A stretch of 56,043 nt of DNA from Chthonomonadales bacterium (lineage in GTDB: Bacteria; Armatimonadota; Chthonomonadetes; Chthonomonadales; CAJBBX01), in NCBI GenBank assembly GCA_013360745.1, contig JABWBA010000013.1, positions 1 through 56,043 on the forward strand, read 5' to 3'. The notes beneath the pieces were generated by a model. The model had not been told where the DNA came from. It ran no database searches and saw nothing but the letters and a program-made list of their open reading frames with translations. Below, piece by piece: positions 12,346 to 22,279 of the stretch (position 1 is its first letter; the number at the start of each line of letters is the position of its first letter). The position numbers and the translations under genes were made by a program.

Positions 12346-13203
12346 ATGGCGCCCGGTTTCCGATATCACGTCATCACGATCGTCGCTATTTTCATGGCGC
12401 TCGGCGTCGGTATGGTTGTCGGGAGCTCTCACCTACAAGAGGCGCTCGTGGAACGTTTGCAGGTACAGCTGGCCGCACTCGGCCGGCGATTCACCGACGA
12501 GATCGAACCGCTTCGCCAACGCACAGAGGAACAGAAGCGGCTGCTCAATCTGTTAGCTACGAGATTGACCCACAACAGGCTAACGGATCGGCGCGTCGCC
12601 GTCGTCGTGACAGGAGACTACGGTGATGCGGCCCATCGCGCCACGGATGAACTGCGGAGCGCTGGCGCTGAGATCGTATCGCTGACCACGATCCCGTCGA
12701 CGTTCCCTGACCGCCTCGACGCAGTCCGCGCCAGACTGACCCAGGTTCTTCCGGAGATCGCTGCCAGCGCCGATGATCCCCGATCTGGTGTGCTGAGACT
12801 GCTGAGCCGTCGCATCGTCTATGGTGGATCCCGCAGCGACCTGACCGAACTCGTCGACGCGAACTTGATCGAAACCGATGGCAACTACAATCGCCCCGTC
12901 CATCTTGTCATCCTTTTCGGCGGAGCGAACGCTGCGATGGGCAAGCGATGGTCCTCAGTCGATCTGCCGCTGATCGACGGTCTTCTTGAGACCGGCGCAC
13001 GGGTGATCGGCGCGGAGGCGGAAGCTGCTGACGTCTCCTACATCACTGCCTATCAGAGCAAAGGCATCAGCACGGTCGACAATGTGGATACTGAGATCGG
13101 TCAGACGACCCTCGTCCTCCTCGCCAGTGGCGATCGCGGGTCGTACGGTATCAAAGATACGGCGCGCGACGGCCGATTACCCTCGGGTGAGCGGCAGGAA
13201 TGA
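12346..13203 (+). CDS. steB: SteB/MctB-like membrane protein (copper transporter family name)
   Basis: This 285-residue protein has one N-terminal membrane helix (ITIVAIFMALGVGMVVG), then a coiled coil (residues about 30-70; ERLQVQLAALGRRFTDEIEPLRQRTEEQ) and a soluble alpha/beta domain with a GG-rich segment (VHLVILFGGANAAMGKRW). This is the MctB/DUF3186 architecture. Databases often name it copper transporter from one mycobacterial study, but beside steA it is better described as SteB, the coiled-coil partner of SteA. It overlaps the next gene by four bases (ATGA). Confidence 0.85.
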   Translation: MAPGFRYHVITIVAIFMALGVGMVVGSSHLQEALVERLQVQLAALGRRFTDEIEPLRQRTEEQKRLLNLLATRLTHNRLTDRRVAVVVTGDYGDAAHRATDELRSAGAEIVSLTTIPSTFPDRLDAVRARLTQVLPEIAASADDPRSGVLRLLSRRIVYGGSRSDLTELVDANLIETDGNYNRPVHLVILFGGANAAMGKRWSSVDLPLIDGLLETGARVIGAEAEAADVSYITAYQSKGISTVDNVDTEIGQTTLVLLASGDRGSYGIKDTARDGRLPSGERQE

Positions 13204-14864: not shown

Positions 14865-15299
14865 TTACAGCTTGAAGTCGACGATAGCGCTCACGCCGAC
14901 TCCTTCGACTCGCTTGATTCCCTTTTGCGGAGACTTGGTCTCCACCGGCACAAGGGCCTTGAGGCGAACGCCGCCGATGGCCTTGAAGTCCCCTTCGATC
15001 TGCGCAACCGCGCGCACCCGATCGAGACGGGACTGAGGCCCGGCCACCTGGGCTGCTCCCAGGTAGCCCCCGTCGCCGATAGAGAGGATCGGGACCACCT
15101 TGGTAGCATCCCTCCCACCGGCGTTCTTACGCATCGTAACCGTATTGATCGCCTTGTCGATGTCCTTGCCAAAGCGATCGACAGCCACCGCGATCGCGCC
15201 GCCCTTGAGGATGCTCCCGAGCTGCGCAGAGGCCAGGCCGCCGCCGAACAAGGCGATGCTAACAACCGCAGCGCCGTATGCCATACGTCTTCGTGTCAT
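14865..15299 (-). CDS. Small secreted protein of unknown function
   Basis: The start is ATG 15299, set by AGGAGG at 15306-15311 with six bases of spacing; the longer frame from 15329 is rejected. The 144-residue product has an Arg-rich N-terminus and a signal peptide ending near LASAQ. The mature part has a glycine-rich helix (LKGGAIAVAVDRFGKDIDKAI), then beta-like segments (TKVVPILSIGDGGYLGAAQVAGP) and ends VSAIVDFKL. I do not recognise the family; it may be a periplasmic or surface protein. A strong terminator separates it from the upstream porin gene, so it is transcribed on its own. Confidence 0.72.
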   Translation of the reverse strand: MTRRRMAYGAAVVSIALFGGGLASAQLGSILKGGAIAVAVDRFGKDIDKAINTVTMRKNAGGRDATKVVPILSIGDGGYLGAAQVAGPQSRLDRVRAVAQIEGDFKAIGGVRLKALVPVETKSPQKGIKRVEGVGVSAIVDFKL

Positions 15300-15335
15300 C
15301 GTATACCTCCTATACACTACTAGACGCATTTTACA

Positions 15336-15401: not shown

Positions 15402-17300
15402 TTAGAAGCGGACCGATACCTGTGTCGTAAAGACGTTGTAGTTGAAGTTGCCACCCGAACCGGCGCCGCCGGTCAGGAAGCCATGACCGTCGAAGGAACC
15501 AATCTGGTAGCCCAGCTTGATCTTCGTCGTGTCGTTAAGGGCGTAACCGGTGCCGATGGTGAAGTAGTGCTCCTGGGGATGCACTCGTCCGGTGGAACCA
15601 GAGAGGAGTCTCCAGTAGACGCCTTCCCAATCGACGGTCGTCTCGAACGAGTCGGACAGAGCCCAGCGGAGTCCAACGAGAACACGATGGATCTCATCGT
15701 CCTTGCCGAGACTGCCTGCAGCCGCCCGATTGCGAGCTTCCGTGTAGAAGTCATAGCCGGCGTTCATGGCGAATGCAGGCGAGAAGTCGTAGTTGAGGGC
15801 AAGGGTTGGACCCTGGATATTCGTCGGGTTCAGCCAGTTGCCGATACGTCCCCAGAAACCAGGGGCGTAGAACATCGGGTCGATGTACTTATAGCCAGCT
15901 GTGACGCCGAGACTGCCGGACCGAAGTCCGAGGTTACCCACATACGCGTCGTTCTGGCCAGCATTGACAGATCCGACGTTGCGGACAATGCCGGTAAGGC
16001 TCTTGGACCAGGATGCGTCGAACGTCACGTTGTCGCTCAGGTTCAGCTTCGCATCGGCGCCAAGAACGGCGACGTTGGTGAACGGCGTCATCGCCGGATA
16101 GGCTACGGTACCGGTGCCGAGCATCGCTGTCGCGCGGATCTGACTGCCTTCCTGTCCGACACGAAGCGGCAGCGTGGCCGACAGTCCGCCGATCTGCTCC
16201 AGAAAGAGAGGATCGTCGCCTGCAACGCCGACCGGCTTTACGCCCATACCCGCATAGATCATCGGGCTGCTAACACCCGCGACCGGCCCCATCCAGGTTC
16301 CCATATTACCGTTGACGGTCTTGAACGATCCGGCGAACACCGTCAATCCAAGGCTGCCAACGCCGGAGTCCAGCGTCAGGCCGTCCATGCGATAGGCGCC
16401 ATCATCGAAGATGGGGTTATTGAAGTATCGATCGGTATCAGGCCTCCAGAGCGTCAGGGGGCTGAGTTTGAAGGGAACGCGACCGATGGTCAGCGCGCCG
16501 TTCTGGCCGAAGCCGCTGAACGGAGCCTTGACGGTGAGTTTGTTGAGGTAGACATCCGTGACCGGGGCATCCATCAGCGGGAAGTTGCCGATGTAGCTGC
16601 CACCCAGGTAGTTCTTGTAGTTGTCGACTACGATCGAGCCATTGATGTCGGTCGAGCCAGACTTCGCCGCAACGCCAAGCTCAAGAGCGTGGGTCATGAC
16701 GGCTGTATCGGAAAGGATCGGATTCGAAGGACGTCCGTCCATATCGACGAACGCGCCAGTCGATCGATCGACACGGATACCCGCAAAGACGGTACCCGAG
16801 ATCTTGGGCATGCCTTCGACGGTGGCGCGCAGATCAGCCACGTCTTTTGCGACCTTGTCCAGCTTCGCATTCAACGCGTTGATATTCACGCCTTGATTGG
16901 CCAGTTCGGCTTTGAACTCGTCAGCCAGCTTCTTTAGGGTTGCCAGTTCCTCGGGTCCCACACCCGCGGGCCCTTGCGGGCCAGGCGCTCCTGCCTCGCC
17001 GGGATCGCCCTTGGGACCCTGTGGACCAGAATCTCCCTTGGCGCCCTGAACGAGCTGGATGCTTTCCAATGCTCTCTTGAGAGCGACTGCGAATTCGTAC
17101 CGGCTGAGCGTGCGCTTCCCGCGGAAGTATCCGTCCGGATAGCCGACGAGGATGTTCTTTGCCCGCAGAGACTCGACCGCCTCATACGCCCAGTGGTCCG
17201 TTGGGACATCACTGAACTCCGGCGGCGCGACCTGGGCCATGACCGGCAACACCCACGCCAGACATACGGAAGCGCCTAGAAAGGTGAGAACCTTTCTCAT
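15402..17300 (-). CDS. SLH-domain outer-membrane porin with collagen-like and coiled-coil segments (OmpM/Slp-like)
   Basis: ATG 17300, preceded by AGGAGG (17308-17313, seven bases away), gives 632 residues; the longer frame from 17438 is rejected. In order: signal peptide ending at VMAQ (1-23), one SLH domain (27-80; FSDVPTDHWAYEAVESL, YPDGYFRGKRTLSRYEF), ten Gly-X-Y triplets (86-115), a predicted coiled coil (117-163) and a beta-barrel (about 168-632) ending VSVRF, a BAM-type C-terminal signal. This order is that of OmpM/Slp tethers, whose SLH domain binds peptidoglycan-linked polymer while the barrel sits in the outer membrane. The collagen-like stretch is unusual. Probably a major envelope protein, given its strong ribosome binding site and terminator. 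Confidence 0.9.
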   Translation of the reverse strand: MRKVLTFLGASVCLAWVLPVMAQVAPPEFSDVPTDHWAYEAVESLRAKNILVGYPDGYFRGKRTLSRYEFAVALKRALESIQLVQGAKGDSGPQGPKGDPGEAGAPGPQGPAGVGPEELATLKKLADEFKAELANQGVNINALNAKLDKVAKDVADLRATVEGMPKISGTVFAGIRVDRSTGAFVDMDGRPSNPILSDTAVMTHALELGVAAKSGSTDINGSIVVDNYKNYLGGSYIGNFPLMDAPVTDVYLNKLTVKAPFSGFGQNGALTIGRVPFKLSPLTLWRPDTDRYFNNPIFDDGAYRMDGLTLDSGVGSLGLTVFAGSFKTVNGNMGTWMGPVAGVSSPMIYAGMGVKPVGVAGDDPLFLEQIGGLSATLPLRVGQEGSQIRATAMLGTGTVAYPAMTPFTNVAVLGADAKLNLSDNVTFDASWSKSLTGIVRNVGSVNAGQNDAYVGNLGLRSGSLGVTAGYKYIDPMFYAPGFWGRIGNWLNPTNIQGPTLALNYDFSPAFAMNAGYDFYTEARNRAAAGSLGKDDEIHRVLVGLRWALSDSFETTVDWEGVYWRLLSGSTGRVHPQEHYFTIGTGYALNDTTKIKLGYQIGSFDGHGFLTGGAGSGGNFNYNVFTTQVSVRF

Positions 17301-17612
17301 TCTGCCTCCTCCTTGTACGTGGTGGCAGATCGTCTCTAGGGCGTTACCGCAACGCTCGAACATCCCGCTATTCTTGTCACGTACGACCTGAGCAGAGCGC
17401 TCGGGTTTGGAAGTTGTCCCTGTTTCCTTCTTCGTCACCCGGATCGTCGTTTCAGTCCGTTCATGAACGCAGATCGCGCTTGTTCTTACGCTTGCAGAGC
17501 CGCCTTGAGCCGCCTGCCGTTGGCGCTCCGCATCGACCTCACCTTACACAAGATAAGGCCTACATGCATCGCACCGAACTAGACCTACGTTACCATAAGA
17601 AGATGCGTTCTG
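17301..17612 (-). other. 312-base gap upstream of the SLH porin; possible promoter
   Basis: No gene is visible between the porin start and the RNase H-like gene. On the minus strand TTGACA (17611-17616) and TAACGT (17587-17592) are 18 bases apart. The -35 is perfect but the -10 matches only three of six bases. The resulting leader would be about 280 bases long, so a second promoter nearer the porin is possible. Confidence 0.35.
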
Positions 17613-18014
17613 TCAATCGCGACGGCCGGAAATATGCCGTTCGGCCAGGATCACCGCAACATAGTCATCGTACGGTTGATCCGGCGTACGAAGACCCAGC
17701 GGTATGAGCCTCCGCCAGCCGCGTGCTGGATGCTCCGTCAGATATCGGCGTCGCGCCATTTCGGAGGTCCGGCGCTCTGGAACCGTGCCAGCCGGAATAC
17801 CGAACTCGGTAAGAAATTGCAGTACGCTGCGGCTGCCGGTGCCATCGCCAACGATCACCGGCACATCGGTGTCACCGCGAACCTCGAGAACCACCGCCGC
17901 GATGTCGGGTGTATCGACGATCCGGCGCACCGATATGACGCCATCCTTCGTCATCGCAGCGAGGCCGCACTTCTTACTACCCGGGTCGATGGCTATGACG
18001 CACGGTAGGGGCAT
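17613..18014 (-). CDS. RNase H-fold protein of the RuvC/RuvX (YqgF) group
   Basis: ATG 18014 (133 residues) is preferred over TTG 18020. The sequence opens with a beta strand and acidic loop, VIAIDPGSKKCGLAAMT, like the LDPGxxRxG of RuvX. It continues with VPVIVGDGTGS, an RRTSEMARRRY helix and PYDDYVAVILAE, whose aspartates fit the third acidic position of the RNase H fold. It is likely a nuclease or Holliday-junction-resolvase-like protein, not a bona fide RuvX or RuvC. It starts ten bases after the DUF3084 gene and appears to end the long gap-lpt run. Confidence 0.7.
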   Translation of the reverse strand: MPLPCVIAIDPGSKKCGLAAMTKDGVISVRRIVDTPDIAAVVLEVRGDTDVPVIVGDGTGSRSVLQFLTEFGIPAGTVPERRTSEMARRRYLTEHPARGWRRLIPLGLRTPDQPYDDYVAVILAERHISGRRD

Positions 18015-18023
18015 GATCAACCA

Positions 18024-19577
18024 TCATATGGCAGGGCGCAACCGAAATGTCAGATCGAGGCGATCGGAAGCCGTTGTGTCGTTGGCCGCGTACGCAGTGA
18101 TCTCCACCAATCGACGCATCGCGCGAACCTTGGTCGACAGGTTAACGAGGTCGGCAGCGCTGTAGGATCCGACCTGGGGCTCGCCGGTCGCCGGGTCCAT
18201 TCGGGGGATTATCCCTCGGCTCAGGGCGGTTTGACCGAGACCTTTGAGCATCAGGACGAGCTCATCGAATACTTCATTGGGGCTATTGGACCCGTCGATT
18301 TTGCGCACCGCCACCTCCTGCCCCTTGCGATAGACCAGAGGATTTGACAGCGGCTGCAAGTCAATCGCAGCGGGCTCACCCTGAGCGCTGTTTGCGACTG
18401 CAACGGCCAGAAGGCAGATCGGTTCATCCGATCTGGAGACTCGGTTGACGATCGCATCGATTCGATCGTCTTCTGTAACGCGAAGAACGGTGGAACCAGA
18501 CGCCGTCGGTGTTGTAAACCGTTTATCGACTATTTCCACAGCGCGCGCACGCTCACCGGGTGCGGCGCCCCGCGCAAGGGCGGCAATGTGGGCAGCGCTC
18601 AAGAGGCTGTCAATAGCCTTGCGAACGCCCTCGGGCGGTGTACCGCTCGGTATCACGGTTCGAGCGAGATCCTCTCCGCCATGCACCGCGATTCGCCGGG
18701 TACGAAGGGCTTCGAACATTGCCCAGAGCGATCGATGTGCCCCGTACGCAGTAGTATAACTATCCTGCATCTCCTTATACTTCGCCTGCAGCGACTCCGT
18801 TTCATTCGCCAGTTGCACCTGTTGGGCCCGCAGACGTTCCAGCAAGGAGGTCAGCTGATCACGGTCCCGAACGAGCTTCTCGTTTTGTTGCGAGATGGCG
18901 TCATTCTCCTGCGAATAGGCCGCGTTTGTGGCGCCCAGTGCGGTATTCGCCTGGCGAAGCTGTTCGTTCCGTTGCTGGAGTTCAGAGGAGCGATCGGTCA
19001 GTTCACTGGTCACCGACCGGAGCCGCTCGTTCCTTCGCGCGAGATCTTGCGCTGCGCTCCGTTCCGAATCCGCCTCTGCCCTTGCGCGCTTTGCGCCCGC
19101 CTCGGCCAGACGCCGAGCCATCTCCGTCGACCGGGCCTGTGCCAGAGCGACCCTCAGGGATACCTGTACAACCTTGAGTCGTTTGTCGGCTGTGACACGA
19201 GCGGCGACAGCGCGAAGTCGCTGCGTCTCAGCGGATGCGCGCTCCTGCCGAGCTCTCCGGAGCGCATGGCGCTCCCGCGTCCTTGCGGAGATAAGGCGAT
19301 CGTTCTCTTTACGAAGCCCGGCATTCGCTCGGATCGCGGACTCTCCCTGCAGGATCACCCTTCGCACGGGCTCGACCGCAACGTAGATCGCCAAAGTTGT
19401 CAACAGGGAGATCAATGTTCCGGTTGCGGCGGTAATGATCGCGGCTGTGTGCCGTGGGCGGAGCCCAAAAAGCGATGCTCGCCGTTTGCCCATCCGCCGG
19501 CCAATAAGGTCGCCAGCATACGCGATCAAGCCGCCTGTAAGCACGGTCGTCGCGAGCGCCGTCACGGTCCACCACAC
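18024..19577 (-). CDS. DUF3084 family membrane-anchored coiled-coil protein
   Basis: GTG 19577, with GGGGAGG eight bases upstream, gives 517 residues; the frame extends to 19619 without support. Two N-terminal membrane helices flank GRRMGKRRASLFGLRPRHTA, a signature of DUF3084 proteins first noted in cyanobacteria. A long coiled coil follows (residues about 85-300, dense in Gln, Arg, Glu and Ala), then a soluble alpha/beta domain (about 310-517). The arrangement suggests a membrane-anchored scaffold reaching into the cytoplasm or periplasm. Its function is unknown. Its position right after lptFG hints at a role in envelope assembly. Confidence 0.83.
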   Translation of the reverse strand: MWWTVTALATTVLTGGLIAYAGDLIGRRMGKRRASLFGLRPRHTAAIITAATGTLISLLTTLAIYVAVEPVRRVILQGESAIRANAGLRKENDRLISARTRERHALRRARQERASAETQRLRAVAARVTADKRLKVVQVSLRVALAQARSTEMARRLAEAGAKRARAEADSERSAAQDLARRNERLRSVTSELTDRSSELQQRNEQLRQANTALGATNAAYSQENDAISQQNEKLVRDRDQLTSLLERLRAQQVQLANETESLQAKYKEMQDSYTTAYGAHRSLWAMFEALRTRRIAVHGGEDLARTVIPSGTPPEGVRKAIDSLLSAAHIAALARGAAPGERARAVEIVDKRFTTPTASGSTVLRVTEDDRIDAIVNRVSRSDEPICLLAVAVANSAQGEPAAIDLQPLSNPLVYRKGQEVAVRKIDGSNSPNEVFDELVLMLKGLGQTALSRGIIPRMDPATGEPQVGSYSAADLVNLSTKVRAMRRLVEITAYAANDTTASDRLDLTFRLRPAI

Positions 19578-19660
19578 GTGCCTCACCTCCCCTTGTACCG
19601 GACAGTCGCGCGCCGTCAACCGGCGGCGCCCGATGATCCGTCACTATAGATCGAATGGGC

Positions 19661-20812
19661 TTACTGCCGCGTACGAGCTACCAGTGTCACTGCAGCGATC
19701 AGACCCAGGATGTTGGCAGCGAACGCGGCAATCAAAGGCGGAAGCGTTCCGCCTTTGCCCATCTGAAACATGCCGTTATGCACCAGCCAGTACGCGAAGA
19801 TGATACCGATCGCCAGGCCGAATCCGACAGCGCGGGAGCCTCGCTGAGGGCGAACGCCAAGCGGCGCTCCCACCAGTCCGAATATCACCGCGGCGACAGG
19901 CAACGCAGCCTTCTCCCAGAGGTTGAACTCGTCAGCGCCGAGATCGGTCTTGCCCATCCGGCGCTTTTCCTCAATCGCAGCCCTGAGCGACGCGAAGGAT
20001 CGGATGCGGTTGTCGGTAATCTGCGGTTCGGGCACGCCTCGGAAGTCGCGATCGAAGCGAACTCCTTCGCCCAGATCCCGAGAACGCGCCTCGGCATACC
20101 AGGCGTCGGTCTGCCTTCGCCCGGTGCGATCCGGATCGAAATAGCGGATGTAGACATCGTAGAAATCGGCGTTCATACCCTTCTCATCGTGGGCCACGAC
20201 TCGGTCAGCGTAGATCAGGGCGGCTGGCTGTCCGGACCGTTTTGGATCGGTGCTCATGAGCAGAATCGACACCTCGCGGAGCTGCCTTGCCCTGGGGTCG
20301 TATCCTCCCATGATCGTGATGACTTCTTCGATTTCGTCACTGTCGGGCTTCTTGACGGCGTAGTGGATCGGCTGCCGCTTGGTGGGCAGCATCGTCGCTT
20401 CTGCGGCCGCATAGGATGCCTTGTAGAACTCCCGCATGGACGCCGGTACTACGACCTCGTTCCAGGCGAACGCGAGCACACTGATGAGCAGCCCGACAAC
20501 GACTACAGGACGACAGGCGCGATAGAAGCTGACCCCGCTGGCATACATTGCGATGTTCTCGCTGTCGCCTGAAAGCCGACCGAAGGCCAGCAGGCATCCC
20601 AGCAGCATCGCCATCGGCAGGCACTGGGTGACCAGCACCGGCACACCGAACATCGATATCCTGGCTACGAGCCCGAAGCCAGCGCCCTTGACCATCAGAT
20701 CGGTCATCTTCGGAAGGTAGACCGAGTTAAAGAGCAGAGCAAGAAACAGCAGGAAGCTATTGAGGATAGGCCCCGCCAGCTCGCGGAGGATCAGGCGGTC
20801 GATCGTGCGCAT
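19661..20812 (-). CDS. LptF/LptG family permease (YjgP/YjgQ)
   Basis: This 383-residue permease has three N-terminal membrane helices (starting MRTIDRLILRELAGPILNSFLLF), a large extracytoplasmic beta-jellyroll region (about 130-290) and three C-terminal helices. It matches LptF/LptG, the transmembrane half of the LPS exporter that works with LptB. Only one gene is present, although proteobacteria use an F/G heterodimer, so the pump may be a homodimer or the partner lies elsewhere. It starts three bases after lptB. The C-terminal DEFNLWEKAALPVAAVIFGLVGAPLGV segment holds the coupling helix that contacts the ATPase. Confidence 0.9.
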   Translation of the reverse strand: MRTIDRLILRELAGPILNSFLLFLALLFNSVYLPKMTDLMVKGAGFGLVARISMFGVPVLVTQCLPMAMLLGCLLAFGRLSGDSENIAMYASGVSFYRACRPVVVVGLLISVLAFAWNEVVVPASMREFYKASYAAAEATMLPTKRQPIHYAVKKPDSDEIEEVITIMGGYDPRARQLREVSILLMSTDPKRSGQPAALIYADRVVAHDEKGMNADFYDVYIRYFDPDRTGRRQTDAWYAEARSRDLGEGVRFDRDFRGVPEPQITDNRIRSFASLRAAIEEKRRMGKTDLGADEFNLWEKAALPVAAVIFGLVGAPLGVRPQRGSRAVGFGLAIGIIFAYWLVHNGMFQMGKGGTLPPLIAAFAANILGLIAAVTLVARTRQ

Positions 20813-20815
20813 CGC

Positions 20816-21535
20816 TCAGGCGCCGTACCCTTCGCCGAAATAAAAACGTCGAGCGACCGGATCCTGTGGCAGTGTATCCGAGGCGCCGGCGGCCTTGATA
20901 TGGCCATCCGCCATGATATAAGCCCGCTGGGTGATCTTCAACGTGGCCTCAACGTTATGATCGGTAATCAGGATCCCGATGTTTCGCTCGCGAAGGCGAC
21001 CGATGATGTGTTGGATGTCCTGAATCGCAATCGGATCTACTCCGGTGAAGGGCTCATCCAGAAGGATAAATGCAGGAGCGGTCGCCAGGGCGCGAGCGAT
21101 CTCGACCCGACGTCGTTCGCCTCCCGATAGCGTCTTACCTCGGCTATCCCGGATTCGTCCGATATTCATGTCCTCGAGCAGCTCATCGGCGCGCTTGCGC
21201 TGTTCGGCGCGACTCAGGCCCGTGTGCTCCAGCACCAGACGGAGGTTATCGATGACCGTAAGTTCGCGAAAGACAGATGGTTCCTGCGCGAGGTACCCAA
21301 CCCCCGCTCGAGCGCGCCGGTACATGGGCATGTTCGTGATGTCCTTACCATCCAGCAGCACCCTGCCGGAGTTTGGACGCACCAGGCCCACCAGAATATA
21401 GAAGGTCGTGGTCTTCCCCGCACCGTTAGGCCCTAGCAACCCCACTACCTCGCCCTGATGCATTTCGAGACGGACACCGTCGACCACTCGACGACCCCGA
21501 TAGGTCTTGACGAGCTCCTCGGCTGCGATCTCCAC
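20816..21535 (-). CDS. lptB: LPS export ABC transporter ATP-binding protein LptB
   Basis: This 239-residue ABC ATPase starts at GTG 21535. It has Walker A GPNGAGKTTTFY, Q-loop LAQEPSVF, signature LSGGERRRVEIARALA, Walker B FILLDEPFTGVDP and the H-loop ITDHNVEATL. The ERRRVEIARAL pattern and the Phe-rich Q-loop are typical of LptB and not of branched-chain amino-acid ATPases. It lies between the LptA-like gene and the lptFG permease. It powers LPS extraction from the inner membrane, so together these genes imply an LPS-bearing outer membrane. Confidence 0.95.
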   Translation of the reverse strand: MEIAAEELVKTYRGRRVVDGVRLEMHQGEVVGLLGPNGAGKTTTFYILVGLVRPNSGRVLLDGKDITNMPMYRRARAGVGYLAQEPSVFRELTVIDNLRLVLEHTGLSRAEQRKRADELLEDMNIGRIRDSRGKTLSGGERRRVEIARALATAPAFILLDEPFTGVDPIAIQDIQHIIGRLRERNIGILITDHNVEATLKITQRAYIMADGHIKAAGASDTLPQDPVARRFYFGEGYGA

Positions 21536-21553
21536 GGCGCTTCGCTGCCTTCG

Positions 21554-22279
21554 TTACTTGCCGCGTCCCGGCTTCGGCGCGGGATCGGCGGTCTCTTTGA
21601 TTCGGATGTTGATCACACCGGACAACGACGGGTTTGATATCGATATCTTATACGGTTGAACGCTCATGTCGATCTGGACTTCGTCGCCGGAGAAGGTAGA
21701 TCCCTCGGGAGGCGTATCGGGTGTAACAACGGTAGCTTCCACGCCGCCCGTCAGTTGTACAAGCCGCTTACCTTCATCGTAGACCGCGCGATCGGCCTTA
21801 CCCGTGACCCGATCCGTACCACCGCCGGAAGGATTCGGCTGGACGGCGCTGAAGGTCACCGGGCCGGTCAGGGTAAGGCGAGAGGCTGAGCGGTCGTATT
21901 CGGCCTTTCTGCCCGCTGCGGTTACGGTCACTGTAGTGTTCCCGGGTCCCTTTCGGACACCCGAGAACTGGACATTACCCGAGGCTTCGATACGCTCAAC
22001 CTCCCGAATACTCCGCCCGCCTTTTTTCATATATGCCGTGATCTCGGCGGCTTTCACCCGGGAGTTGGCGCTATTCGCGGCATCCGTAATGTCCACGACT
22101 GTGTTCGGGCCCTTGACGCGCGCAATGACCCCGAGTTCGAGTTCGGCCGTCGCGAAATCTCTCATGACGATATCGCCGAAACGGATCTGTTTCGCCGAGC
22201 CCGGCTTCTGCGCTCCGATGGCGACGGCAAGACACAGCATAACCGGGATACCGAGCAACCTCCCGTATATCGTTCCCAA
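21554..22279 (-). CDS. LptA/OstA-like periplasmic protein
   Basis: The start is TTG 22279 with GGAGG about five bases upstream; no ATG fits. The 241-residue protein has a signal peptide (LLGIPVMLCLAVAIGA) and repeated beta-strand pairs of the OstA/LptA fold: VVDITDAANSANSRVKAAEITAYM, VERIEASGNVQFSG, KAEYDRSASRLTLTGPVTFS, DRAVYDEGKRLVQLTGG. LptA forms the periplasmic bridge that carries LPS. Its place between lptC and lptB supports this. It is longer than E. coli LptA and ends in a basic tail. Confidence 0.85.
   Translation of the reverse strand: MGTIYGRLLGIPVMLCLAVAIGAQKPGSAKQIRFGDIVMRDFATAELELGVIARVKGPNTVVDITDAANSANSRVKAAEITAYMKKGGRSIREVERIEASGNVQFSGVRKGPGNTTVTVTAAGRKAEYDRSASRLTLTGPVTFSAVQPNPSGGGTDRVTGKADRAVYDEGKRLVQLTGGVEATVVTPDTPPEGSTFSGDEVQIDMSVQPYKISISNPSLSGVINIRIKETADPAPKPGRGK

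Follow-up and report, generated by a model that had tools for sequence, protein, structure and literature searches.

How does a porin of the outer membrane come to carry a collagen-like segment between its cell-wall-binding motif and its beta-barrel, and what might such a segment do there? The question is raised by a gene at positions 15402-17300 (minus strand) of the window, i.e., the whole 56,043-nt stretch analysed here, which belongs to contig JABWBA010000013.1 of a Chthonomonadales bacterium. The ORF starts with an ATG at 17300, ends with its stop codon at 15402 and encodes 632 aa; an AGGAGG ribosome-binding site is located at 17305-17310, and a scan for promoters and terminators yielded nothing above chance. 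All parts of the protein are likewise encoded on the minus strand. A signal peptide (residues 1-22, 17235-17300) with cleavage near VMA/Q was read from the sequence, and the N-terminus is conserved in the alignment. It is followed by a single SLH motif (residues 29-71, 17088-17216; PF00395, 37.2 bits compared to a cut-off of 20.8), which matches the SLH motifs of OmpM1 (8bys) and SlpA (7zgx), and by ten Gly-X-Y triplets (residues 86-115, 16956-17045) whose position is conserved among homologues. The subsequent coiled coil (residues ~116-164, 16809-16955) is homologous to that of OmpM and shows a heptad pattern with a hydrophobic period of 3.5 residues, and 27 homologues display the clean 3-4 pattern downstream of their collagen runs; the coiled-coil start aligns to 8bys as a second matched stretch. 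Residues 165-632 (15405-16808) form a porin-like beta-barrel with a terminal Phe.

The AlphaFold monomer (mean pLDDT 74.6) contains the SLH helices, helices at residues 116-163 and a predicted barrel of approximately 20 long strands, for which Foldseek retrieved outer-membrane porins, including OmpM1 8bym at E 8.6e-10. Residues 83-112 are unstructured in this model and the Gly-X-Y stretch has a pLDDT below 50; a monomer is uninformative for a triple helix. The order of signal peptide, SLH motif, Gly-X-Y triplets, coiled coil and barrel given by the first-pass annotation was thus confirmed by the ORF, Pfam, the heptad pattern and AlphaFold/Foldseek. A frameshift or fusion artefact was ruled out by independent assemblies sharing the same order of parts, and a lipoprotein by the lack of a lipobox and by the Cys of the signal peptide not being conserved.

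The kinship to OmpM/Slp proteins, also proposed at first pass, is borne out by OmpM1 of Veillonella parvula (PDB 8bym, 8bys), which has the signal peptide, one SLH motif, the coiled-coil stalk and the porin barrel in common with the tether studied here and is matched over the SLH motif and the coiled-coil start in sequence (E 5.9e-13) and over the barrel in fold. OmpM1 differs in lacking Gly-X-Y triplets and in its 16-strand barrel, compared to the approximately 20 strands predicted here. SlpA of Deinococcus radiodurans (PDB 7zgx, 8ae1) connects outer membrane and cell wall by an SLH motif, a coiled coil and a barrel as well, the former two being trimeric, but its spacer consists of a coiled coil of ~28 nm plus a short disordered linker, its barrel has 30 strands and collagen is absent. 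In case of the cyanobacterial SOM porins (“iron uptake porin”, NF033921), SLH motif, coiled coil and barrel are shared and the tether gives a partial NCBIfam match of 62 bits, below the cut-off of 100, whereas all of the approximately 45-50 homologues fetched are devoid of Gly-X-Y. SlpA-like/OmpM proteins have already been listed for Armatimonadetes (PMC9388160). All testable features identify the protein as an OmpM/SlpA-type tether; by analogy to its relatives it would form a trimer and bind peptidoglycan. Bacterial and phage collagen-like stalks are usually extracellular (PMC8968730, PMC3368898), and the protein could accordingly be imagined as an S-layer component or surface adhesin outside the cell with collagen as its stalk, but this can hardly be entertained, given an N-terminal SLH motif and coiled coil, a C-terminal porin barrel matching that of OmpM1, and thereby the topology of OmpM1 and SlpA, in whose solved structures the N-terminal part is periplasmic and the coiled coil trimeric (PMC10628300, PMC9388160).

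The source genome encodes a single SLH protein, namely the tether. No OmpA domain (PF00691) was detected in this 97% complete genome by a search for this family with a positive E. coli control, and a CsaB pyruvyl transferase is present (265 bits compared to a curated cut-off of 213). CsaB makes the usual SLH ligand; it is present in Deinococcus/Thermus and not universal in OmpM hosts. Due to the single SLH protein, the presence of CsaB and the lack of an OmpA-domain protein, the tether is probably the main link between outer membrane and cell wall of this cell, and also a porin.

Upstream, the tether gene is directly preceded by a co-directional envelope gene block (17613-22279, minus strand), which comprises genes for a RuvX-like protein (17613-18020), a DUF3084 protein (18024-19619) and the LPS-export components LptF/LptG (19661-20812), LptB (20816-21535) and LptA/LptC-like (21554-22279). 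DUF3084 and RuvX-like genes adjoin the tether gene also at loci L007, L072, L073, and L092, LptB and DUF3084 adjoin the Atribacterota tether L093, and DUF3084 and/or LptB occur beside tethers of other classes; the association of LptB/DUF3084 with the tether suggests an old envelope gene neighbourhood. The gene directly downstream encodes a small exported protein without family match (14865-15329, minus strand), which recurs next to the tether in at least five relatives (L003, L008-L011; 51-64% identity) and is a possible partner of the tether. An MctB-family protein (12346-13203, plus strand; Pfam, 142.7 bits) is encoded nearby on the opposite strand.

The triplets of the tether (GAK GDS GPQ GPK GDP GEA GAP GPQ GPA GVG) are uninterrupted. 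Their score for Pfam Collagen (18.9 bits) stays below the cut-off of 27.2, as expected for such a short run; many longer homologues, e.g., G062, G064, G249, and G256, pass it, and in the source genome the tether is the only match to this family at E <= 0.001. None of 5000 shuffles of the protein gave ten triplets in a row, the largest number being seven. Due to the mixed codons of the segment, with four different codons for its ten Gly and varied codons for its six Pro residues, a DNA microsatellite or repeat artefact was ruled out. Collagen-type statistics were compiled from 89 distinct runs with 1095 triplets, in which the Gly codons are mixed as well. Pro occupies 54% of the X positions, the Y position is chiefly taken by Ala, Pro, Gln, and Lys, and Phe, Trp, and Tyr do not occur in any of these triplets. 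Among 97 Lys residues at Y, 85 directly precede Gly-Asp or Gly-Glu, compared to a mean of 26.8 and a maximum of 41 in within-run shuffles; this axial charge pair stabilises triple helices (PMC8890135). When 24 N-termini with a collagen segment were aligned, eight successive triplets had Gly in every sequence, and X and Y varied. Taken together, the runs bear strong signs of what would be a genuine triple helix.

These statistics also bear on a simpler interpretation, according to which the segment is a flexible, disordered Gly/Pro-rich linker and its three-residue period a by-product of repeat expansion. Sister families tolerate very different spacers, helical or Pro-rich ones (the latter in f19), SlpA possesses a short disordered linker at the corresponding position between SLH motif and coiled coil (PMC9388160), and GPA-rich runs could have arisen by repeat slippage. 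We regard this interpretation as unlikely, since a disordered linker requires neither mixed codons, nor the exclusion of aromatic residues, nor strong Lys-Gly-Asp/Glu pairing, and since the Gly period is strict, without slip in most runs, with invariant Gly columns across a deep divergence.

Outside the phylum, Gly-X-Y is absent from all homologues of Cyanobacteria, Atribacterota, Thermotogota, and UBP7 among the 80 best contig loci; Negativicutes and Deinococcota were sampled via solved structures and plasmid-borne homologues only. Locus L090, labelled Actinomycetota, carries the segment and is identical in the tree to a tether of the Armatimonadota family f28. Aligned with homologues from the Negativicute Sporomusa, from Thermus, from a cyanobacterium and from Atribacterota, the collagen run appears as an insertion precisely between the SLH motif and the coiled coil, whose start is conserved. 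The statement of the first-pass annotation that known OmpM/Slp proteins lack collagen holds for the solved OmpM1 and SlpA, for the papers on both, in which the word “collagen” does not occur, and for the homologues read from other phyla. A report uniting SLH motif, collagen-like segment and porin was not found in the literature consulted, with a mention of collagen being possible in Witwinowski et al. 2022, reportedly the principal phylogenomic study of these tethers; the collagen-spaced variant of the OmpM/SlpA tether is apparently unreported. Collagen-like regions as such have been described for Bucl8 of Burkholderia, an outer-membrane channel protein (PMC7682875, PMC8968730), which differs by efflux-type outer-membrane domains and the lack of an SLH tether.

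Within the phylum, homologues of the tether were obtained from 284 of 291 genomes searched. The closest records bearing a name are MAGs of Chthonomonas/Chthonomonadales, the best of which (DYKI01000005) shares 86% identity in the N-terminal region, in agreement with the initial placement in the Armatimonadota. In the order of the window (families f1-f3, more than 30 proteins), all tethers read possess 7-12 triplets at the corresponding junction, and orthologues lacking Gly-X-Y, named at first pass as evidence that would speak against the proposal, were thus not encountered there. In a family survey that excepted f5 and f24, homologues were read from 43 families, of which approximately 25 possess the segment and approximately 17 lack it. 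The trait is therefore far broader than the single protein first noticed, and a tether as such can do without it. In the collagen-free families the spacer is helical or, in case of f19, Pro-rich; the f19 tethers (L029-L031) represent another non-helical solution at the same junction. On an unrooted, quick-type tree of 146 tethers, calculated without the spacer, the trait requires seven changes, at least six of which are forced by well-supported branches, compared to 49 with shuffled labels. The trait accordingly tracks the clades and has undergone a few gains or losses, which a tree of this type leaves indistinguishable from each other.

Considering the architecture, the conservation, the collagen-type statistics, the distribution and the genome context described above, we deem it likely that the protein is a tether of the OmpM/SlpA type whose periplasmic stalk contains an inserted collagen triple helix. 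The assembly would comprise three chains, with three SLH motifs, one per chain, binding a pyruvylated polymer on the peptidoglycan and three barrels serving as porins in the outer membrane. Between them the stalk would consist of a triple helix of ~8.6 nm (30 residues at the collagen rise of 0.286 nm per residue), followed by a three-stranded coiled coil of ~7 nm, both estimated with textbook rises. Ten triplets without hydroxyproline are of marginal stability on their own, which counts against a triple helix. Collagen situated beside a trimeric coiled coil and stable without hydroxyproline is proven in E. coli prophage fibres (PMC3368898); the proteins concerned (EPclA) are of the phage-fibre type with unrelated domains and possess neither SLH motif nor barrel. 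In case of the tether, one SLH motif per chain and the trimeric coiled coil of the solved relatives would keep the three chains aligned at either end of the run, so that the flanking trimeric SLH and coiled-coil parts may clamp the short helix and permit its folding in the absence of hydroxyproline. From these features we infer trimer formation, wall binding, triple-helix folding, and a spacing function. As proposed at first pass, the segment would set the spacer length and could conceivably add rigidity.

As to spacer length, the coiled coil has a constant length of 48 residues (SD 1.7) in the order of the window and the collagen part varies between 21 and 36 residues in whole triplets, so that the latter is the length-variable element in this order and lends indirect support to length-setting. 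Triplets would be gained and lost as whole units, and stalk length would thereby evolve through the collagen part. Across the phylum the number of triplets ranges from 6 to more than 50; it is 6-20 outside f41, and in f41 runs of 44-54 triplets are interrupted once or twice. A search for a physical spacer length that stays constant between spacer types was negative. With slightly more doubt than confidence, we further consider that the triplet number, from 6 to more than 50, acts as a ruler which is tuned by selection and sets the distance between outer membrane and wall in much of the Armatimonadota, replacing or extending the coiled coil of other phyla. Scl, Lcl, and Bucl proteins are mostly described as binding proteins (PMC8968730), and the run length in the order of the window spans only 7-12 triplets; both would suit a segment that chiefly binds peptidoglycan, its secondary polymer or a partner protein instead of acting as a spacer. 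Poor conservation of X and Y even among close relatives and the wide range of triplet numbers across the phylum are unlike a conserved binding surface and render this very improbable. Returning to collagen as spacer, an identically placed insert is found in many families and is absent from the known tethers of other phyla, and thus collagen probably serves the Armatimonadota bearing the segment as a spacer within the envelope.

Bacterial collagen has been described for surface proteins, spores, phage fibres and a small number of outer-membrane proteins. The tethers apparently employ it inside the envelope, as a load-bearing part which a whole phylum has kept by vertical inheritance over deep time. 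The tethers form a natural series, in which one protein is combined with collagen spacers of differing length or, at the corresponding site, with spacers of another kind. Comparison or exchange of this single segment thus makes it possible to test what determines the distance between outer membrane and wall in a bacterium.

A few genomes deviate from the general pattern. Two or three tandem tether genes occur at L015, L025, L056, L066, and L219, compared to one in the source genome. In G031, a 94% complete genome of the window's family, a collagen-type tether was not found and the only SLH match is weak, which may reflect either a gap in the assembly or a genuine loss, and in G193 and G194 of f22, 25 and 38 SLH matches per genome were counted, unlike most of the phylum. 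The f41 tethers L226 and L228 (G255 and G253) contain 22+22 and 20+33 triplets, respectively, each interrupted once, and their stalks would reach a stretched length of ~40-46 nm, far over the usual periplasm.
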